Below, piece by piece: positions 41,163-51,472 of a stretch of 64,000 nt of DNA; the first letter of the stretch is position 1, and each line of letters starts with the position of its first letter. This stretch comes from Ignavibacteriales bacterium. GTDB lineage: Bacteria > Bacteroidota > Ignavibacteria > UBA10030 > SZUA-254. Where the stretch lies: NCBI GenBank assembly GCA_016214905.1, contig JACRMQ010000008.1:1-64000 (forward strand), in the 5' to 3' direction. Position numbers and translations under genes: made by a program. Under the pieces are notes generated by a model. That model saw only the letters and a program-made list of their open reading frames with translations, was not told the origin of the DNA and made no database searches.

Positions 41163-41756
41163 TTATAAGTCTGACTTCAGGAGGGAGAGATATTGAAACG
41201 AGGTATTAATATTCTCAAAAGTTAAAGATGAATTCTTTTGAAAATATTTTTCGAAAGGAAATATTTTTAGTTTACAATTTTTAATAAAATTGTGGACAGA
41301 AAGATTCTTATTATTGAGCGCAATCTCCAACTCGGTGCGACAACTATTTTTATATATGCCGGGGAATGGTTGAACATTACCATTAATTGAGTATGTGATA
41401 ATATCACCATCATCGGATAATTTAATTAAAGAATGTATAACTTCTTTTTCAATCATGGGAATGTCGCACGATGTAACAAATAAATTTTTACGGATGTTTA
41501 TCATCGCAGCATGAATGCCAGCAAGTGGTCCAGAATTTTTATAATGATCGTTGTAAATTGGCAGATTCATAAATTTATATACTTCCAAATCATCCGAAAT
41601 GACAATTACTTTTTCAAAAAAATATTTCAGTGTTTCAGCGATATGTTGAATAAACGGTTTGCCGCGGAATTCGAGCATTGCTTTATTCTGTCCCATCCGT
41701 GAACTTTTCCCGCCGGCGAGGATTACCCCAACGATATGTGTTCTTAATTCTATCAA
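41163..41756 (-). CDS. mobA: Molybdenum cofactor guanylyltransferase
   Basis: A 197-residue cytoplasmic enzyme with the nucleotidyltransferase opening VGVILAGGKSSRMGQNKAML (GTP-binding loop) near residue 9 and the metal-binding block TSCDIPMIEKE around residue 97. Reaction known for MobA: transfer of GMP to molybdopterin-Mo to form the guanine dinucleotide form of the cofactor, which Psr/Phs/DMSO-reductase family enzymes require. It is last in the Moco operon, 4 nt after the MOSC gene, and fits the molybdoenzyme encoded upstream at 49283. Confidence 0.93.
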   Translation of the reverse strand: MIELRTHIVGVILAGGKSSRMGQNKAMLEFRGKPFIQHIAETLKYFFEKVIVISDDLEVYKFMNLPIYNDHYKNSGPLAGIHAAMINIRKNLFVTSCDIPMIEKEVIHSLIKLSDDGDIITYSINGNVQPFPGIYKNSCRTELEIALNNKNLSVHNFIKNCKLKIFPFEKYFQKNSSLTFENINTSFQYLSLLKSDL

Positions 41757-41760
41757 TCAA

Positions 41761-42243
41761 TTATCCCAACACTTCTGTATTAATTATTTTTGGTACGGTA
41801 ACGATATAGATTTCATCACCGATTTTAACAATCCCACCTTTTAGTACTCGCGCGAAGATGCCCTCCCGAGGCATAACACAATCACCTGCATGATAATAAA
41901 TTGCGCATTTGGAATGACATTCTTTTCCGATTTGAGTTATTTCTAATACTGACCCTCCAATAATTATTTTGTCACCGATGAATAATTGTGGAAGATTCAA
42001 AAATTCTGTCGTGATGTTCTCTGCGAAGGCTCCCGGTCGGACGTTTAATCCCTTTGCGTGCATCTTTTTAATGCTCTCAATTGCAAGAAAGCTTATCTGA
42101 CGATGCCATTTGCCGGCGTGTACATCACCTTCTATCCCCCAGTCTTCGATGAGCTTCACGCCATCAACATTTGTCTTGGGGATCCCTTTTTTCTTGCTGA
42201 TATTAAGGGCAACGATTTTGCCTTTTGATTCGTTATTAGTCAT
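41761..42243 (-). CDS. MOSC domain protein
   Basis: A 160-residue protein consisting of one MOSC domain: VDGVKLIEDWGIEGDVHAGKW near the N-terminus, RPGAFAENITTE in the middle and the conserved Cys in GKECHSKCAIYY. Small stand-alone MOSC proteins are associated with molybdenum cofactor handling or sulfur transfer; the Cys is thought to carry sulfide. It lies between moeA and mobA. The specific step is not known. Confidence 0.88.
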   Translation of the reverse strand: MTNNESKGKIVALNISKKKGIPKTNVDGVKLIEDWGIEGDVHAGKWHRQISFLAIESIKKMHAKGLNVRPGAFAENITTEFLNLPQLFIGDKIIIGGSVLEITQIGKECHSKCAIYYHAGDCVMPREGIFARVLKGGIVKIGDEIYIVTVPKIINTEVLG

Positions 42244-42322: not shown

Positions 42323-43537
42323 TCACTTCATCAACTCAACTTTAACATTAGAACCCTTTTTCAGGATCAACGCTTCTACCGGGAAATGAATTAAACAATT
42401 GGCATCTGCCATTCCGCTGAGCATATGAGAACCTTGCCCTTTTGTTGGTGTAACAACTATTTCATTTCTCGAATTGGCTGTAAGCAATCCACGCACTAAT
42501 TCAAGTCGACCTGAACGCTTCTTTAGCTCCTCATCCAATTTCGCGCATAATATTATCGGCTGATGTTTATTTTCCCCCATCATCTTTCTGATAGCCGGTT
42601 TTACTATTTGATTGAAGATGAGCAGCGAAGCTACAGGATTTCCGGGCAAGCCGAAAATAAGCTTCTTTCCTTTTACTCCGAAGTAAGTCGGCTTTCCAGG
42701 CTTAATGGCGATTCGCCAGAATATTTTCTTAATCTTTAATTTATCAAATATTCCCTGCACGTAATCATACTCACCCACTGAGATTCCACCAGAGACGAGT
42801 AATAGATCCGATTTCTTTAAACCGAGTCTAATCTTTTTCAACAATTCAGCTTTATTGTCTTTAGCAATACCTAAATTAATTGCATCAATATCCATTTGTC
42901 TCAATGAGGAGGAAAGAGTATAAAAATTTGAATCGTAGATTTGTCCGAATTTTAATTTCTTTCCTATTTCAACAAGTTCGTTGCCCGTTACCAGGACAGC
43001 GACTCTTGGTTTTTTAAAAACTCTGATCTTTTTAATTCCTAACGAAGTCAACAATCCAACAACCGAAGGACTGATTTGTGTATACTTCGGAAGGATCATT
43101 TTCCCTTTTCTAAATTCTTCACCTTTGTATCGAAAATTATCTCCTAATTTTGGCGAGGTATAAAAGAAGATAGTGATTCCTTCCTTTTTTGTAAATTCTT
43201 TCATCACCACAGCATCGATGCCAGAAGGAATTGGTGCACCGGTTAAAATTCGTAAACATTCGCCTCGATGTATTTTAATTTTCGAAGAATCACCTGCTTT
43301 AATTTCACCAACTAACTTTAGCGCCGCGGGATTTTCATCGTTTGCATTTATGAGGTCTGCGATCTTGACACCATAACTATCCACGGCTGAAGAAGTAAAT
43401 CTCGGAAGATCGGAAATTGCGGATAGATCCTTAGCTAAAAATAATCCCAAAGAATCTTCGATGTTGACGACTTCGGTGCCAATACCACCGGAATACTTCA
43501 GCACTAACCGTAATGCGCTATTATAATCTGTTAACAT
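42323..43537 (-). CDS. moeA: Molybdopterin molybdenumtransferase
   Basis: About 404 residues from ATG 43537. The frame is open to 43579, but MoeA proteins start as MLTDYNSALRLVLK does here and the longer form overlaps the preceding gene. Typical segments: SSAVDSYGVKIAD, GECLRILTGAPIPSGIDAVVMKE and the MPT-binding GGISVGEYDYV, plus the C-terminal beta domain. Reaction: inserts molybdate into adenylylated molybdopterin. It lies 23 nt after the moaC-moaB fusion gene in the Moco operon. Confidence 0.95.
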   Translation of the reverse strand: MLTDYNSALRLVLKYSGGIGTEVVNIEDSLGLFLAKDLSAISDLPRFTSSAVDSYGVKIADLINANDENPAALKLVGEIKAGDSSKIKIHRGECLRILTGAPIPSGIDAVVMKEFTKKEGITIFFYTSPKLGDNFRYKGEEFRKGKMILPKYTQISPSVVGLLTSLGIKKIRVFKKPRVAVLVTGNELVEIGKKLKFGQIYDSNFYTLSSSLRQMDIDAINLGIAKDNKAELLKKIRLGLKKSDLLLVSGGISVGEYDYVQGIFDKLKIKKIFWRIAIKPGKPTYFGVKGKKLIFGLPGNPVASLLIFNQIVKPAIRKMMGENKHQPIILCAKLDEELKKRSGRLELVRGLLTANSRNEIVVTPTKGQGSHMLSGMADANCLIHFPVEALILKKGSNVKVELMK

Positions 43538-43560
43538 TGTAATTATTCGATTTGCATTGT

Positions 43561-44469
43561 TTAGTGAGTTTCCATCCACAGCATTTTAAATGCGTGTAAT
43601 AACGGCGGAAAAAGTGCGTCGAGAGATTCGGTAACACCTTTCTTTGAACCCGGCAGATTTACAATAATTGTTTTGCCGCGAATACCGGCTTTACCTCGCG
43701 AGAGCATTGAGTATGGCGTACGTTCTTGCCCGTAAACGCGCATCGCTTCAGGAATTCCGGGAATTTCTCTTTCGATTACTCCCATGGTTGCTTCGGGAGA
43801 AAAATCCCTCGGACTGAATCCTGTGCCTCCGGTTGTCATAACCAAATCGAGCTTCATATCATCCGAGTAATCGATTAATTTCGATTTAATCGTTTCTGCA
43901 TCATCGGGGATAATGGAATAATCAGCTACAATAATTCCATGTTTAACTAATCTGTCTTGAATTATTTTTCCAGACTCATCGCTTTTCTTTCCCGCAGAAA
44001 TAGAATCCGACATTACAAGCACCGCGGCACGCAAAGGTTTTTTGAATTCAGTTTTAAAATCAGACTTGCCACCTTTTTTACTGATGAGTTTGATAGATAA
44101 AATTTCCATTTCTTCATCAAACATTTTCATCATGTCGTAAAGTGTAAGAACGGCAACGGATGCAGCCATCAGCGCTTCCATCTCAACGCCGGTTTTGTAA
44201 ATCGCTTTTACTGTAATTGTAACATCAATTTTCTTATCCCCCAACTCAAAATCGACACCAACATAATCAACAGGGATCGGGTGACAGTAAGGAATAATCT
44301 GACTCGCGTTTTTTGCTGATTGAACAGCAGCTACTTTTGCAACAGAAAGGGGATCGCCTTTGGGGATTTTATTTTGATGGATGAGTTCAATAGTATTGTT
44401 TGATAATTTGAGCGTCGCGCGCGCAACCGCAGTCCTCAGTGTTTTAGTTTTATTTGAGATATCGATCAT
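43561..44469 (-). CDS. moaCB: Fused cyclic pyranopterin monophosphate synthase and molybdopterin adenylyltransferase
   Basis: A 302-residue fusion. Residues 1-145 are MoaC (opening MIDISNKTKTLRTAVARA; core IPYCHPIPVDYVGVDFEL; VEMEALMAASVAVLTLYDM), which forms cPMP. Residues 147-302 are MoaB/Mog (AAVLVMSDSISAGKKSDESG; VMTTGGTGFSPRDFSPEA; the LPGSKKGV motif), which adenylylates molybdopterin. Joining the two in one chain couples an early and a late step of the pathway; such MoaC-MoaB fusions are known in several phyla. Located between moaA and moeA in the same operon. No MoaD/MoaE genes are in this window. Confidence 0.93.
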   Translation of the reverse strand: MIDISNKTKTLRTAVARATLKLSNNTIELIHQNKIPKGDPLSVAKVAAVQSAKNASQIIPYCHPIPVDYVGVDFELGDKKIDVTITVKAIYKTGVEMEALMAASVAVLTLYDMMKMFDEEMEILSIKLISKKGGKSDFKTEFKKPLRAAVLVMSDSISAGKKSDESGKIIQDRLVKHGIIVADYSIIPDDAETIKSKLIDYSDDMKLDLVMTTGGTGFSPRDFSPEATMGVIEREIPGIPEAMRVYGQERTPYSMLSRGKAGIRGKTIIVNLPGSKKGVTESLDALFPPLLHAFKMLWMETH

Positions 44470-44551: not shown

Positions 44552-45538
44552 TTAACCACCTATTTGTATCATGCTTCTATTTTCAATTTTTACTAATTCT
44601 TCCGAAACAGGATGTTCAAATTGTTTTTGCAGAACAGCCGAGCGAATTATTTTTTCAATTGATTCATCGGATCGATTGCTTCGTAACGCAGAATGCAAAT
44701 TAATTTCTGCTTGATGAAAAAGACAAGACTTGATGGAGCCATCAGCAGTCAGTCTGATTCTGTTACAGGTTCCACAGAAATGATCTGACATCGATGTAAT
44801 GAAACTAACCGTTCCAACAAACCCATCAATCCAAAAATCTTTTGTTACCGAATTTTCAGACTGAGATTCCACAGGTTGCAATTCAAACTTCTTATCAATA
44901 GTTTCCATCATCTGTTGAAATGAAACAAATTTTGCCCGATTCCACTGATTAAACTTGAACGGCATATATTCAATGAAGCGGACATTGATCGGTTTTCCTC
45001 TCACAAATTCGATAAAATCCAGGAGCTCATCGTCGTTGATACCCCCCATGACTACCATATTCAATTTCAGTGGTTGAAAACCCGTTTCAAGCGAAGCATA
45101 TATTCCATCAATGACATCATCGAAATGTTGCCTGCCTGAAATCATTTCGAACCGCGAAGGTCTAAGAGAATCTAGACTGACATTCAAATTGGTAAGTCCA
45201 GCTTGTTTCAATTCCCTGGCAAATGATTTTAGCAAAACTCCGTTTGTCGTCATGCCGATAATCTGAATTCCGGGAATGGCTGATAATCTATGGATGAGCC
45301 TTGGTAAATCTTTTCTCACAAGCGGTTCACCACCGGTCAAGCGAATCTTCTTCACTCCCATCAACGCAAATATTCTCGTCAGGCGCTCAACCTCATCGAA
45401 TGTAAGTATCTCACTCCGCTCCTTTAACCGTATACCTTGCGGTGGTATGCAATAGCTGCAACGAAGATTACACCTATCCGTTACTGAAATACGGAGATAA
45501 TCGTGCTTGCGGTTATATGTATCTGTCAGATGAGTCAT
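44552..45538 (-). CDS. moaA: GTP 3',8-cyclase (molybdenum cofactor biosynthesis protein A)
   Basis: A 328-residue radical SAM enzyme. N-terminal cluster motif CNLRCSYC in RISVTDRCNLRCSYCIPP (residues about 17-34); second cluster cysteines in FCGTCNRIRLTADGSIKSCLF (about 258-278); C-terminal Gly-Gly ending (MIQIGG) needed for activity in MoaA. Reaction: converts GTP to 3',8-cH2GTP, the first step of Moco synthesis. First gene of the Moco operon; no clear ribosome site was seen, and a 378-nt leader with a probable Moco-type riboswitch and terminator lies upstream, so this operon is likely controlled by cofactor level. Confidence 0.96.
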   Translation of the reverse strand: MTHLTDTYNRKHDYLRISVTDRCNLRCSYCIPPQGIRLKERSEILTFDEVERLTRIFALMGVKKIRLTGGEPLVRKDLPRLIHRLSAIPGIQIIGMTTNGVLLKSFARELKQAGLTNLNVSLDSLRPSRFEMISGRQHFDDVIDGIYASLETGFQPLKLNMVVMGGINDDELLDFIEFVRGKPINVRFIEYMPFKFNQWNRAKFVSFQQMMETIDKKFELQPVESQSENSVTKDFWIDGFVGTVSFITSMSDHFCGTCNRIRLTADGSIKSCLFHQAEINLHSALRSNRSDESIEKIIRSAVLQKQFEHPVSEELVKIENRSMIQIGG

Positions 45539-45613
45539 TTGATAATGGATATTTGATGTTCGATATTCGTTATTAATTATTCGACATTAATTCTGCTATC
45601 ATTAAAATAAAAA

Positions 45614-45641
45614 TCCCCATCTCTTATGGAAAGGACGGGGA
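45614..45641 (-). terminator. Intrinsic terminator between aptamer and moaA (expression platform)
   Basis: Minus-strand stem TCCCCGTC (45641-45634) with GATGGGGA (45621-45614), 8 bp with one G-U, 12-nt loop, followed directly by TTTTTATTTT. It stands 76 nt before the moaA start, so full termination would silence the whole Moco operon. The terminator's 5' side contains TCCTTTCC, complementary to GGAAAGGA in the aptamer's last strand. Confidence 0.85.
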
Positions 45642-45722
45642 GTTAGACATTGCATCATTGTTTCATCGAATCATTAGACCAATGTTACAATGTTAAAATG
45701 AATAAATGATAAGATTATTTAT

Positions 45723-45804
45723 CTCTCCTTTCCAAGTCGGGTGGCAATACCGTTTCTAGTATTACCGTTTTCCAATCTTATTCGTATGAGTAAGACGGGA
45801 AGAG
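45723..45804 (-). promoter_or_regulatory. Probable molybdenum/tungsten cofactor riboswitch aptamer
   Basis: On the minus strand: closing stem CTCTTC with GGAGAG; a TCTTA/TAAGA hairpin; a GGTAATAC/GTATTGCC hairpin; then GCCACC and, after five bases, TTGGAAAGG. The words TTGCCACC and TGGAAAGG match, as I remember it, the moaA leader riboswitch of E. coli, here without the P3 arm, the form associated with tungsten-type variants. Location before moaA and the overlap of GGAAAGGA with a terminator sequence fit transcriptional control by Moco. Confidence 0.6.
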
Positions 45805-45916
45805 TTTACGAACTCATCGATCCTGATTCCATATTCAAATACTTGAACTTAGGAAGCGGGACTCGGAGTAATTTACAAAGAACGAACTTTCTCAAATATA
45901 ATACATTTAAGAAAGC

Positions 45917-46570
45917 TTAACAACCTTCTTTTTTCTTCTTTTTGCCTGCCGTCGGAGCGGATCCTCCGGTCGGCATTTCAAGTTTCGGCATCGGTTTTTT
46001 CGAAGATACTTCTTCCGTAGCGCCGCCGACTTGCGGCGAGCCGCCGAAGAATTTGCTCACTTCTTTCATTTTTTCGAATGCGGTGGTTTGTTCAGGAGTT
46101 GCGTTTTGTGCAAGTTTTGGGAAAAGAATTTTATCTGCCCATTCTTCCAACCCACCGAACAGCATGTATACAGCTTTATATCCATTTGCCCTTAACAACA
46201 TCCACGCTTGAGCTGAATGGATACCGCCTTCCGAGTATAAAACAATTTTTTCATTCCGTAATAACGGATATTGATTCAACTCTGCTAACGGAACTAGTTC
46301 TGCTGAGGGAATATGGTACTCGTTGAATTCTTTTTCTGTTCTGAGATCGAGTAGTTTAAAATCGCTCTTTCCCTGAATTATCCAATCGGCAAGCTCTTCT
46401 GCAGATACGTGGTCAACTGTTTTGTCCACGATGAGCGACAACTCTTTAGTATCCAATGTAACAGAGCTTCCACGGTAAGGATTACCTGCAAATATCGCGA
46501 TTAATCCAAGAATAAATGCCAGCAGGGCAAGTTTTTTATTCAACGAAAGTTTTGGAAAAAAGTTTTTCAC
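45917..46570 (-). CDS. Membrane-anchored rhodanese-like protein without the catalytic cysteine
   Basis: A 217-residue protein starting at GTG 46570, with GGAG eight nt upstream. One N-terminal membrane helix (12-30), then a rhodanese domain (about 48-140: LLDLRTEKEFNEYHIPSA ... GGLEEW). The active-site loop, normally C-X-X-G-X-R/S after a hydrophobic strand, reads IVLYSEGGIHSAQAW, with Ser113 in place of the sulfur-carrying cysteine. A flexible Pro/Gly/Lys-rich tail ends in KKKKKEGC, leaving Cys217 as the last residue. It is the end of the sulfur operon, 2 nt after the YeeE/YedE gene. Possible sulfur-relay role through the tail cysteine is speculative. Confidence 0.85.
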   Translation of the reverse strand: MKNFFPKLSLNKKLALLAFILGLIAIFAGNPYRGSSVTLDTKELSLIVDKTVDHVSAEELADWIIQGKSDFKLLDLRTEKEFNEYHIPSAELVPLAELNQYPLLRNEKIVLYSEGGIHSAQAWMLLRANGYKAVYMLFGGLEEWADKILFPKLAQNATPEQTTAFEKMKEVSKFFGGSPQVGGATEEVSSKKPMPKLEMPTGGSAPTAGKKKKKEGC

Positions 46571-46572
46571 GA

Positions 46573-47172
46573 TTACGGCTCCACTATTTTATTACCAAGT
46601 TTTTTTTCTGCCCATTCAGCGGCGGCAAATCCACCTATTGCCATCATGACAACGGCAAATACTAAAATTCCATATGGAATATTGAATAATTGTGAAAGTG
46701 TAATCTGCCCCATCGGTGTGGAGTTGTAGAAATTGCTTACAAGCGGGAAGATTTCACCGAAGATGAATATACCGACAACAATACCGAGTAAGTAGACCAT
46801 TCCGTCTATCTTTCCGGTGACGGCTGAAACACACGAAGTGCCTGGACAATACCCACCGATCACAAATCCGAATCCTAAAAGTAATCCGCCGATTGTTTGT
46901 GGAACGATGTATGTTGGATTCAAGTAAACCAATGATAAATCCATCCAACCGATCACTGATAAATAATAAATACCGACCATCGCCGTAATGATTGCCGTGA
47001 ACATTACTTTGAAAACCGTGAGATCATTGAAGTAAAATTGAGCCGCCAATTTACGTCCATTACCGAATCCTGCCCTCTCTAAGAAAAATCCGAATCCGAT
47101 ACCAATAACAAATGCAATAACTAAACTAACATCATCGCCGAATAATCCATATTTAAAAAAAGGTGTGTTCAT
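46573..47172 (-). CDS. YeeE/YedE family sulfur transporter, second half-size protein
   Basis: About 199 residues from ATG 47172, which overlaps the preceding stop codon (ATGA) and is nine nt from AGGAG; an ATG six nt earlier is too close. Four to five membrane helices with conserved segments FGFFLERAGFGNGRKLAAQF and GGYCPGTSCVSAVTGK, the latter holding the two cysteines of the family. Known for YeeE/YedE (TsuA): thiosulfate or related sulfur uptake through stacked cysteines. Bacteria often encode it as two half proteins, as here with 47169-47711. Confidence 0.9.
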   Translation of the reverse strand: MNTPFFKYGLFGDDVSLVIAFVIGIGFGFFLERAGFGNGRKLAAQFYFNDLTVFKVMFTAIITAMVGIYYLSVIGWMDLSLVYLNPTYIVPQTIGGLLLGFGFVIGGYCPGTSCVSAVTGKIDGMVYLLGIVVGIFIFGEIFPLVSNFYNSTPMGQITLSQLFNIPYGILVFAVVMMAIGGFAAAEWAEKKLGNKIVEP

Positions 47173-47711
47173 CTCCATTGTCTCCTAAAAAAGTATGCAA
47201 ACATATAAGCACCACCAAAAACAGCAAGTATAAATGCCCAACTGCCGACGTTCAGAACGGCGCCCCCAGTCAGCGCCTGACCGCTTGTGCAACCACGAGC
47301 AAGTTTTGCACCGATACCCATTATTGCCCCACCGACAAATGCATAGAGTAATCTGCCGCTGACAGAAATGTGAGGACCTTTCTCGACTGTCTTTTTAATT
47401 CTTCCCGCAAGCGCGCCGGAAATAAATCCACCGGCTAATACTCCAAGCACTTCGAAAACGAGCCAGTCTTTCAACGGACTTTTTGTTGTATCAGCAAGAT
47501 ATTCATTGTAAAATTCATTTGCCTTCGCATGTTCGGGAGCGATTGCACTGACACCTGTTGCTACAAGCGAGGAGAATGCGCCTGACGCGCCAAGCCCGCG
47601 CCCCATGATAACGTACGATAAAAGAAGCACGAGTCCCAAACCCATACCGGAAAGATACGGATTCCAGTATGGCTTTGGACCGTGTTGAACTTCGTTTGAT
47701 GTTGATGACAT
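47169..47711 (-). CDS. YeeE/YedE family sulfur transporter, first half-size protein
   Basis: A 180-residue membrane protein with about four helices and the family motif ARGCTSGQALTGGAVLNVGS (Cys near residue 148). A longer loop (about 55-85) faces outside. It overlaps the second YeeE/YedE gene by 4 nt, so the two halves are made together and presumably pair. Position after the polysulfide/thiosulfate reductase genes suggests supply or return of the sulfur substrate across the inner membrane. Confidence 0.9.
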   Translation of the reverse strand: MSSTSNEVQHGPKPYWNPYLSGMGLGLVLLLSYVIMGRGLGASGAFSSLVATGVSAIAPEHAKANEFYNEYLADTTKSPLKDWLVFEVLGVLAGGFISGALAGRIKKTVEKGPHISVSGRLLYAFVGGAIMGIGAKLARGCTSGQALTGGAVLNVGSWAFILAVFGGAYMFAYFFRRQWR

Positions 47712-47789
47712 AATATTATCCTTTATTAATCCTTCGTTAAATACTAAATCCTAATTTCGAAATACGAAACAATTTCCAATATCAAAATT

Positions 47790-48734
47790 CTAAAATGCAG
47801 CATCTACCCAGTGCGTATACTGTCCAGCGTAAACAATCACAAACCTCAAAACTAATCCACCCACAATTACCATGATCGGCGCTATTGGAGTATGTTTGAT
47901 TTTATGATTCACTGCCAATAGTTGTAATATCAACGGAATCACAATTCCAATTCCTAATACAAATACCCAGAATGCAGGTGCATATAATCCACTCAAAAGT
48001 ACAAGAGCCGATTGAATATGTACTTTTGTTGATGTTAGCATTCCGATTATAAATAAACCGATAACGAATATTTCAAGTATTAAAAAACCGTTATCAGCTT
48101 TTGCAAGCAACTCTCTTTCCTCAACTCTCTTTGCAACCATGTGAACGAACGCTGATGCGGCAGATAATCCTGATACTAAGAATAAAAGCCAGAGCATCGA
48201 ACTGTTCCACAAAGGGCGCGCACCTAACGCGCTTAATAATACTCCGGTATAGATTCCAAGCAATCCACCCAGCAACATATTGACGACACCAATATTTTTC
48301 ACTGCATATTTATGCTGCTGGAGTTTTTCGGAAATCCCAACCATCCATGGAAATTTCCTCGAAAAATATTCAGGCACGTTGACCAAGAAACTGGCAATCA
48401 TAGTTGGATAAACAACGATTAATATCCACGCACCCCACGACATAGGCGAGGTAGCTTTGAATGTTAAATACAATCTCCACGTGTATAGCTTATGCTCAAG
48501 ATCGAGGAACAATGCAAACATGCCTGCGCTCAGAATTATCATTCCTAATAACGGAAGCGATCGGCACACACATGCTTTGTCTTTGTATTTTCCTTTGAAA
48601 ATGAAATAACCGGTAATGATCATCATCCCGGCAACCAATCCGCCTATAAAAAGATAAACCGGAATTTCCCATCCCCAGATGTGGAGTGACGGATCGACCA
48701 ATTCGTTATGACGTGTTGTTGTATACTCGTTCAT
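47790..48734 (-). CDS. psrC: NrfD/PsrC-type membrane anchor subunit of the sulfur-compound reductase
   Basis: A 314-residue integral membrane protein with about eight helices. The start region (LHIWGWEIPVYLFIGGLVAGMMI) and the later segment MSWGAWILIVVYPTMIA are standard for NrfD/PsrC. Family role: quinol oxidation and anchoring of the iron-sulfur and molybdenum subunits on the periplasmic face. It is 6 nt downstream of the ferredoxin-like subunit gene. Residues for quinone binding cannot be assigned with certainty from sequence alone. Confidence 0.93.
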   Translation of the reverse strand: MNEYTTTRHNELVDPSLHIWGWEIPVYLFIGGLVAGMMIITGYFIFKGKYKDKACVCRSLPLLGMIILSAGMFALFLDLEHKLYTWRLYLTFKATSPMSWGAWILIVVYPTMIASFLVNVPEYFSRKFPWMVGISEKLQQHKYAVKNIGVVNMLLGGLLGIYTGVLLSALGARPLWNSSMLWLLFLVSGLSAASAFVHMVAKRVEERELLAKADNGFLILEIFVIGLFIIGMLTSTKVHIQSALVLLSGLYAPAFWVFVLGIGIVIPLILQLLAVNHKIKHTPIAPIMVIVGGLVLRFVIVYAGQYTHWVDAAF

Positions 48735-48740
48735 ATCACC

Positions 48741-49280
48741 TCACACTAAATAAAACATTTGTGGTTTTGTTCCTGCTTCTGGAATCAATGAATGATTTTT
48801 TCTTGATGCAAGAAGCTTGCTTACCTGACTGTTCGGATCGTCTAAATCTCCGAAGTACATGCAATGGGTCGGACAAACCGAAACACAAGCAGGATCCAAT
48901 CCCCTCTCAACCCGGTGAACGCAGAAAGTACATTTGTCCGCGTAACCTTCGGGATGAATAAACCTTGCATCATACGGACACGATGCGAGGCATGCCTTGC
49001 AACCTATACATAAATCGTGAGTTACGAGAACTATGCCGCCAAGATCGTGCACATGACTTGCCCCTGTGGGACAGCAATAAACACACGGAGGATTATCGCA
49101 ATGGTTACAACGTTCAGTTCTGATTTCCATATGAAGATCAGGATTTTTACCGCGTACATCCTGCACTATCCAATCGCGGTTGAATGCTTCGGGAACATCG
49201 TTTTCTGTTTTACATGCAACAACACAATCCATGCAGCCGACGCATTTTTTCGTATCAATCACCATTCCAAATCGTGCCAT
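48741..49280 (-). CDS. psrB: Four-cluster ferredoxin-like electron transfer subunit
   Basis: A 179-residue protein of the DmsB/PsrB/PhsB family. Sixteen cysteines form four [4Fe-4S] sites in the typical order: CVGCMDCVVACK, CNHCDNPPCVYCCP, CIGCKACLASCP and CTFCVHRVERGLDPACVSVCP. It carries electrons between the PsrC quinol site and the molybdenum subunit. Two nt separate it from the catalytic subunit gene. No own signal peptide is seen, so export would be by hitch-hiking with the TAT-bearing PsrA subunit. Confidence 0.95.
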   Translation of the reverse strand: MARFGMVIDTKKCVGCMDCVVACKTENDVPEAFNRDWIVQDVRGKNPDLHMEIRTERCNHCDNPPCVYCCPTGASHVHDLGGIVLVTHDLCIGCKACLASCPYDARFIHPEGYADKCTFCVHRVERGLDPACVSVCPTHCMYFGDLDDPNSQVSKLLASRKNHSLIPEAGTKPQMFYLV

Positions 49281-49282
49281 GA

Positions 49283-51472
49283 TTATCCCTCCATCTCGAT
49301 TGTTACGAAATTCACATTCATGCCGGTTCCTCCCATAAGCGGATCGGTTTCGAAACGTGTCAGCAGTTGCGAATCACTTGCTCCTTTTCCGAATGCATGT
49401 TTCAATCCCTTCGCGGTATGACCGAAACCGTGCACCATGTAAATACAATCCTGCCTGATTCTTTCCGTCACTTTAACTTTTACTTTATTGCTCACCACTC
49501 CATCCTGATTTTTTAATTTGATATACTCGCCGCTCTTTAAGCCGTAACGCTCGGCGATGTTTGCATTCAACCAAACTTCATTCTCCGGCATCGCATCGGA
49601 TAAAATTCTGTTGCTCTGGGTTCGGCTAAAAGAATGAACCGGCGCTCTGCCGTACAATAATCTGAACGAACCAGCCGGTCCGCCTGCTGGTCGTTTATAT
49701 TTCGGAACAGGATCGAAACCTGCTTGTTGAAGTTGAAGTGAAAAGAATTCTATCTTTCCTGAAGGAGTTGGGAATTCCGCAGGCACACCTTCATCAAAAT
49801 AATTCGGCTGGTTGGCTCCGAGTATGATGCCGTTCTTTTTCAGCTCATCAAAACTTAATCCCGCGGCGGTTATGCGATGGTTGATGTACTCTTCGACATC
49901 TTTCCATGGATAATAATTCCCAAATCCTAATTTCTCCGCAAGTTTCTTCGCGATCCACCAGTTTGGCTTTTGCTCATGCGGCGATTCAACTACCGGCTGA
50001 CGCAAAGCAACAAACGAATCACGGAACCACTCGACATTGATATCATCGTACCGCTCAAGATAAACCGATTCGGGAAGCACAACGTCTGCCCATCCTGCAA
50101 TCTCGCTCGGAATTACATCAACCACAACCATCAAATCTAAATTCTGAATTGCTTGTTTTGTAATATCTTCGTTTGGTAATGCCTGAAGAAGATTCGTTGC
50201 ATAAACAAACCATCCCTTGATCGGATATGGATTTCCTGTAAGAGTAGCTTCACGAATTCCGGTGGTAATCGCTTCATGTGCGAACGGATATTTTTTATTG
50301 GGATTATCGACTTTCTCTTTCGCAGGAGTTGGATATGCCGGATACGGATAACCGGGAACATCCATATTTACCGGATAATAGAATCCGCCTTTTCTTCCCC
50401 AGCTTCCCATGAGCGCGTTCAGCAATGCAATTGCTCTACTGCGCTGTGCATCGTCGCCGTACCAGGTAACGTGCCTGCCGGGATGAATTAGCGTTGCCGG
50501 TTTGTACCGTGCCATCTCACGTGCGGTTGCTCGAATCAGTTTCGGCTCGATCCCTGTTTCCGGATAAGCCCACTCAGGAGTGTAAGATAAAATCTCCGCC
50601 TTGAACTGCTCAAATCCGAATCCGTATTTCTCAACGTACTCTTTGTCATACAGATTTTCAGAAACAATAACATTCATCCATGCAAGAAGCAGCGCGAGAT
50701 CGGTTCCGGGTTTTATGGGTAGATAATATTTTGCTTTACTCGCGGCAACCGAGAAGCGCGGATCGACAACTATAATCGAGGCATCGTTCTGTACCGCATC
50801 GGCAAATTCCTGTGCCTGAGTATTGTGCATATTCTCGCCAAGGTGGCTTCCAATAAGCACTAGACATTGCGAGTTTTTAATATCTGTTCGTTCCGGCGAA
50901 CTGACATCTTCGCCGTACGTAAGTTTGAAACCGACATCTCTTGGTCCTCGGCATTGCGCAAACGATGGTGCCGCAAAGTTGATAGCACCGTAAGCTTTCA
51001 AAGTGTGTTTTAGAAAATTCACGCCAATACCATGACTGAATAACGCCATCGATTCAGCTCCGTACTGAGATTTTATTTTTTGCATTTTATCGGCGATGTA
51101 ACCGAGGGCTTCATCCCACGTGACTTCTTTCCACATCTCTTCTCCGCGTTCTTGAGTACGAATTAACGGCGAGCGCAATCTATCCGGGTCATAATGTGCA
51201 CCGATACCTCCGGTGCCACGCGGACACAACCGACCTCTGCTAAGAGGATCAAGAGGATTACCTTCAACTTTCCACAGTTTGCCGTTGCGGAGATAAGCTA
51301 TCGCTCCGCATTTCCAGAAACATATATCGCAAAAGGTTGGAATTTTTTGGATACCTTTTTGCTTTGCAGCATCAGAAGTTTCGATTGCTTTTGATATGGT
51401 TCCTACTGCTGCTGCCGCGGCTATTGTAGCGCCGGATATTTTTAAAAATTTTCTTCTAGATAGTGGATTCAT
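49283..51472 (-). CDS. psrA: Molybdopterin oxidoreductase, Psr/Phs (polysulfide/thiosulfate reductase) type catalytic subunit
   Basis: A 729-residue enzyme. TAT signal SRRKFLK at residues 5-11. N-terminal cluster: C48-X2-C51-X3-C55 and C83 for [4Fe-4S]. The likely Mo ligand is Cys174 in SFAQCRGPRD, cysteine being usual for the PsrA/PhsA branch. The C-terminal MGD-binding domain holds LLYGRAPVHSFSRTQSNR and IAERYGLKSGEYIKL. Substrate is inferred from branch and neighbours: polysulfide or thiosulfate; arsenate or tetrathionate cannot be ruled out. It overlaps the MerR gene by 17 nt, and the Moco genes lie downstream on the same strand. Confidence 0.92.
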   Translation of the reverse strand: MNPLSRRKFLKISGATIAAAAAVGTISKAIETSDAAKQKGIQKIPTFCDICFWKCGAIAYLRNGKLWKVEGNPLDPLSRGRLCPRGTGGIGAHYDPDRLRSPLIRTQERGEEMWKEVTWDEALGYIADKMQKIKSQYGAESMALFSHGIGVNFLKHTLKAYGAINFAAPSFAQCRGPRDVGFKLTYGEDVSSPERTDIKNSQCLVLIGSHLGENMHNTQAQEFADAVQNDASIIVVDPRFSVAASKAKYYLPIKPGTDLALLLAWMNVIVSENLYDKEYVEKYGFGFEQFKAEILSYTPEWAYPETGIEPKLIRATAREMARYKPATLIHPGRHVTWYGDDAQRSRAIALLNALMGSWGRKGGFYYPVNMDVPGYPYPAYPTPAKEKVDNPNKKYPFAHEAITTGIREATLTGNPYPIKGWFVYATNLLQALPNEDITKQAIQNLDLMVVVDVIPSEIAGWADVVLPESVYLERYDDINVEWFRDSFVALRQPVVESPHEQKPNWWIAKKLAEKLGFGNYYPWKDVEEYINHRITAAGLSFDELKKNGIILGANQPNYFDEGVPAEFPTPSGKIEFFSLQLQQAGFDPVPKYKRPAGGPAGSFRLLYGRAPVHSFSRTQSNRILSDAMPENEVWLNANIAERYGLKSGEYIKLKNQDGVVSNKVKVKVTERIRQDCIYMVHGFGHTAKGLKHAFGKGASDSQLLTRFETDPLMGGTGMNVNFVTIEMEG

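Follow-up and report, generated by a model that had tools for sequence, protein, structure and literature searches.

Regulski et al. (2008; PMC2408646) described Moco RNAs, the family RF01055, as having at most five helices, P1 to P5, and the Rfam consensus contains one P3 hairpin. The gene correlations given in that account assigned P3 to Moco and tied P3-less RNAs to Tuco and tungsten use, and in the part of this founding work that deals with binding, direct ligand binding was not demonstrated, as the instability of the compounds prevented this (PMC2408646). The same account described terminator platforms for some members and ribosome-site occlusion for the Escherichia coli platform (PMC2408646), and RNA-seq ends in the E. 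coli moaA leader suggest termination (PMC12121620). A Moco RNA has also been reported from Caldithrix abyssi, phylum Calditrichaeota (PMC5317091).

Here we describe a member of this family from an Ignavibacteriales genome, a group that NCBI taxonomy places under Ignavibacteriota. We refer to the whole 64-kb stretch of DNA that was analyzed as the window. With RF01055 as set out in the 2008 account (PMC2408646), the window RNA shares P1, P2 with its tetraloop receptor, P4 with a GAAA loop, P5, the GGAAAGG word, and the position ahead of moaA; it differs in P3, which consists of two abutting hairpins (46 nt), whereas the family has one or none. With the E. coli moaA Moco RNA, which scores 103.4 bits with RF01055, it shares the family, moaA as the first controlled gene, and the GGAAAGG core, but in the E. 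coli RNA P3 is one hairpin and the aptamer ends at the moaA start codon. The Caldithrix RNA (PMC5317091) resembles it in lying outside the 2008 taxa and in a moaA-moaC-moeA-MOSC locus.

A Moco riboswitch aptamer ahead of moaA

The moaA leader is a Moco riboswitch of the known family RF01055. Rfam cmscan matched RF01055 to positions 45880-45709 of the minus strand, between a rhodanese gene (end 45917) and moaA (start 45538), with 60.6 bits (E = 4.6e-12) against a curated gathering score of 36 bits, which bears out the call of a Moco-family riboswitch before moaA made in the initial annotation. This was the sole Rfam match at gathering score in the 64-kb window, and RF01055 has a single copy genome-wide. 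The alignment takes in the full model (1-135), with 49 nt of the target at P3 bridged by a local end; that is, the Rfam model skips the window's P3 region. The whole leader also folds more stably than 200 shuffled versions of it (z = -4.4). The aptamer and the genes that follow it, all on the minus strand, are as follows.

45709..45880, minus strand: Moco riboswitch aptamer, RF01055 bounds (cmscan)
45865..45868, minus strand: P1 5' strand CUCC, partner GGAG at 45725-45728 (Rfam alignment; covariation alignment)
45820..45862, minus strand: P2, with internal loop CCUAAG (45848-45853)/UAUGG (45829-45833) as tetraloop-receptor region (Rfam alignment, fold, covariation)
45802..45815, minus strand: P3a, GAGUU-CGUA-AACUC, 5 bp with a 4-nt loop, 14 nt (fold, covariation, relatives)
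45770..45801, minus strand: P3b, second P3 hairpin, 32 nt, directly abutting P3a (fold, covariation)
45743..45766, minus strand: P4, with GAAA tetraloop at 45753-45756 (Rfam alignment, covariation)
45725..45741, minus strand: P5 (CC/GG), junction signature UUGGAAAGG, and P1 3' strand GGAG (Rfam alignment, relatives)
44552..45538, minus strand: moaA, first gene of the controlled operon (Pfam Mob_synth_C, Radical_SAM)
43561..44469, minus strand: moaC-mogA/moaB fusion (Pfam MoaC and MoCF_biosynth)
42323..43579, minus strand: moeA (Pfam)
41761..42243, minus strand: MOSC-domain protein (Pfam)
41163..41756, minus strand: mobA-like nucleotidyltransferase (Pfam)

The features that define the family, namely P1 (with one mismatch), P2, P4, P5, the conserved central junction, a GNRA (GAAA) loop on P4 with a receptor in P2, and placement ahead of Moco biosynthesis genes, are all present. 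In the window P1 is short, with four core pairs and an adjoining A-A mismatch; across 15 relatives this helix is 93% paired. Both family words picked out initially are real, GCCACC being the 3' end of P4 and UUGGAAAGG lying at 45735-45727. P5 takes the forms CCUCCC/GGAAAGG, CCUGCC/GCAAAGG, and CCUUCC/GAAAAGG among relatives. Across the RF01055 matches of the class, P5 and the 3' signature co-vary, as CCUCCC/UUGGAAAGG, CCUGCC/UUGCAAAGG, and CCUUCC/UUGAAAAGG. Judging from the family and the genes, the ligand of the window RNA would be the cofactor.

The bounds needed revision. The initial span ended at 45804 and missed the aptamer's 5' half, 45805-45880, with the CUCC of P1, P2, the tetraloop receptor, and most of P3a; as a consequence, CTCTTC/GGAGAG was taken as the closing stem and P3 was overlooked. 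That stem fails among the 15 relatives, in which its cells are paired at 56.7% compared to 57.8% in shuffles, with no covariation. It also uses nucleotides of P3a and P3b, the real P1 being CUCC (45868-45865) paired with GGAG (45728-45725).

Upstream of the riboswitch lies a set of co-directional genes (45917-51472), which stops 36 nt short of the aptamer. These genes encode a MerR regulator, a molybdopterin oxidoreductase, NrfD, sulfur-transport (YeeE/YedE-like) proteins, a rhodanese, and an iron-sulfur protein (called by its sequence). Rhodanese and YeeE genes precede the riboswitch in four relatives as well (G011, G128, G148, and G172).

Two hairpins at the P3 site

The less ordinary feature of this RNA is its sensor arm P3, which is predicted to form from two hairpins rather than one or none. 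Far from lacking a P3 arm, as had been suggested, the RNA has P3a and P3b side by side between P2 and P4, with covariation for both. RF01055 members have P3 absent or as a single hairpin; since P3 is optional in the family, the double P3 marks a variant and does not exclude the RNA from RF01055. It departs from the 2008 description (PMC2408646), whose supplementary alignment may hold unremarked examples.

To place the double P3 among relatives, we pooled RF01055 matches from a class sample and a phylum sample (n = 72, all genomes from one phylum) and left out two half aptamers and one probable chance match. By folds classed by eye, the 69 usable matches comprised 22 with a double P3, 4 with a single P3, and 43 without P3. 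The double-P3 matches came from 21 genomes, with nine family labels in the class and one outside it, and P3a has 5 bp and a 4-nt loop in most of them.

Fifteen double-P3 members were aligned to the 35-pair fold with both hairpins. Standard pairs made up 89.4% of this fold compared to 67.8% in shuffles, there were 117 double-change cells compared to 39, and covariation was 0.611 compared to 0.228 (at most 0.20 for slid versions), all values being somewhat favored by the fold having been partly read from the same 15 sequences. Double changes fell in four of five P3a pairs and in all four basal P3b pairs tested across these relatives. A covariance model built from the 15 sequences and run on the same genomes returned no additional double-P3 members. 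A possible interaction of the P3a loop (UUCGUA) with the P3b loop (UACGAA), seen by eye in the window, was set aside, as the loops differ in most relatives.

Any role for the double P3 would be an inferred one. It occurred with the GGAAAGG form of the core in 22 of 22 matches, and 27 of the 43 P3-less RNAs carried the GCAAAGG form. One reading, which we regard as rather unlikely, is that RNAs with the double P3 form a subtype of Moco riboswitch that is distinct in both structure and function, is linked to the C-G form of P5, and differs from other members in ligand preference or affinity. A related alternative, that two-hairpin P3 has shifted ligand preference toward another Moco form (e.g., a dinucleotide) or a precursor while keeping the same terminator platform, would draw on the same association and on the constancy of P3a, but we judge it improbable given that the downstream genes are an ordinary Moco set and the family's conserved junction words are unaltered.

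A predicted terminator platform

The sequence between the aptamer and moaA, and that just ahead of the aptamer, contain the following elements.

45893..45923, minus strand: promoter-like TTG-N20-TATATTTG, which would start a transcript just ahead of the aptamer (sequence)
45726..45734, minus strand: antiterminator 5' strand UGGAAAGGA, overlapping P5, the junction, and the P1 3' strand (9-bp complement)
45627..45635, minus strand: antiterminator 3' strand UCCUUUCCA, in the terminator 5' arm and loop (9-bp complement)
45604..45641, minus strand: intrinsic terminator, UCCCCGUCCUUUCCAUAAGAGAUGGGGA plus UUUUUAUUUU (hairpin energy, relatives)

The promoter-like element resembles what we take to be the Bacteroidota-type consensus, and a transcription start site near the aptamer is likewise suggested by sequence. 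In relatives, TATATTTG is kept in G011, is TATATTT in G148, and is reduced to TTATAATT in G128. The terminator consists of a stem-loop at 45641-45614 (-14.7 kcal/mol) and a U tract at 45613-45604, and G148 and G172 have similar hairpins. Between aptamer and terminator, the spacer at 45722-45642 has short CATTG/AATGA-like repeats, as does the same place in G148, G172, and G001.

A terminator whose 5' side complements the aptamer had been noted initially, and this complementarity held up. UGGAAAGGA and UCCUUUCCA form a perfect 9-bp pairing, and the exact complement TCCTTTCC/GGAAAGGA, which is 9 bp with flanking A/T counted, was reached by about 0.2 to 0.4% of shuffles. The mutual exclusion proposed for the two pairings was reproduced in folding: a leader cut just past the terminator 5' arm and loop had the antiterminator as its minimum free energy structure (-67.0), and constrained folding of the full leader gave -77.7 with aptamer and terminator compared to -71.6 with the antiterminator forced.

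Comparison of relatives' leaders, which the initial annotation had named as a check, revealed that the terminator's word changes with that of the aptamer. UUUCC occurred in terminators behind GGAAAGG-type aptamers in 10 of 25 cases, and UUUGC never; behind GCAAAGG-type aptamers, UUUGC occurred in 3 of 23, and UUUCC never. No locus was crossed, and one GCGAAGG locus has a terminator with UUCGC, a matching change. The Fisher value for this match, 0.003, is only a guide because the loci are related. A perfect complement of at least 7 bp was found at 11 of 49 terminator loci, where 0.7 were expected and the maximum in 300 shuffles was 5, a count that likewise takes related loci as independent. The remaining loci, with pairing below 7 bp, may use other pairings.

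The folds and the matching words across relatives support an OFF switch acting by termination, and we consider it very probable that this Moco riboswitch represses its operon in that way. The direction of switching is taken from the family and the genes. A transcript would begin a short distance ahead of 45880. Binding of the cofactor would keep P1 (CUCC/GGAG) and the GGAAAGG junction within the aptamer, the hairpin at 45641-45614 would form, and RNA polymerase would halt at the U tract ahead of moaA. Without ligand, UGGAAAGGA and UCCUUUCCA would pair, the aptamer-side UCCUUUCC engaging the terminator-side GGAAAGGA, and the terminator would be blocked, such that moaA-moaC/mogA-moeA-MOSC-mobA would be transcribed.

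The co-directional genes that end 36 nt before the aptamer could instead mean that the hairpin constitutively terminates the upstream sulfur/molybdoenzyme operon, with the aptamer acting on translation or on nothing. We consider this very unlikely, because, here and in other relatives, the 5' arm and loop of the hairpin are complementary to the aptamer core and track its sequence. In addition, moaA, directly downstream of the leader, starts some 65 nt past the U tract, far enough from the aptamer that the latter would not be expected to occlude the moaA start.

P3, tungsten, and distribution across the class

Aldehyde ferredoxin oxidoreductase (AOR) is the main tungsten enzyme. We sought its AFOR_N domain (PF02730), the only tungsten-related domain covered, in 67 genomes of the RF01055 set, many of them drafts; the one match was in G290, whose RNA is classed as single-P3, and among the 42 genomes with P3-less RNAs (many drafts) there was none (0/42). 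P3-less RNAs in genomes without AOR fit poorly with the idea that P3 loss marks Tuco, which weakens that rule; it is not refuted, because AOR alone was searched and many of the genomes are drafts. That the window RNA itself is a Tuco-type (tungsten cofactor) riboswitch, a form the initial annotation had allowed, is highly improbable: it belongs to the family in which the 2008 account linked P3-less RNAs to Tuco (PMC2408646), but it has P3, as two hairpins, and its genome has no AFOR_N match, PF02730 being the sole measure of tungsten-enzyme genes.

The riboswitch is spread across the class without being universal. The initial annotation took Moco riboswitches not to be known from this phylum, which agrees with the list of taxa in the 2008 account, where the phylum does not appear (PMC2408646), but 65 of 391 genomes in the class sample have RF01055 matches with E <= 0.001, and in 62 of these the score exceeds the Rfam cut-off. 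In the family-level group, moaA is present in 14 of 15 genomes and the riboswitch in only 4. The 30-bit match in G606 is weak and probably arose by chance, and a plasmid nucleotide search returned nothing relevant. No riboswitch is listed in the gene tables around four plasmid moaA genes, tables that hold no RNA features and of which one belongs to an unannotated record.

Several loci in the sample differ in other respects. The two half aptamers (G172:C93 10743-10612, L050; G354:C59 775-655, L075) have the P1 5' strand, P2, and P3a, then a common TTTGCAGCTC, without P4 or GGAAAGG; the one in G172 lies ahead of a DUF2283 gene, upstream of a full aptamer. In G198 (L063), G207 (L028), and G140 (L089), the first open reading frame past the riboswitch encodes a TonB-dependent-receptor-like protein, called from a Pfam Plug domain in G140 and by resemblance in the other two, which suggests outer-membrane uptake of molybdate or a cofactor-related compound. 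In G001 (L076), G126 (L035), G143 (L024), G189 (L082), and G204 (L034), the first or second open reading frame encodes a membrane protein with a motif like WGxxEIxxGTxLHxxKIPFRG. Pfam gave no match for two of these proteins, which are possible transporter components under Moco control.

For annotation, the locus gains a well-supported expression platform, and its double P3 falls outside what the Rfam model describes. The clade includes RNAs with no P3, a single P3, or a double P3, nearly all of them from genomes in which AOR had no match, and offers natural material with which to test the role of P3. If the double-P3 subtype were real, it and the P3-less RNAs in AOR-less genomes would overturn the simple rule that P3 means Moco and no P3 means Tuco.
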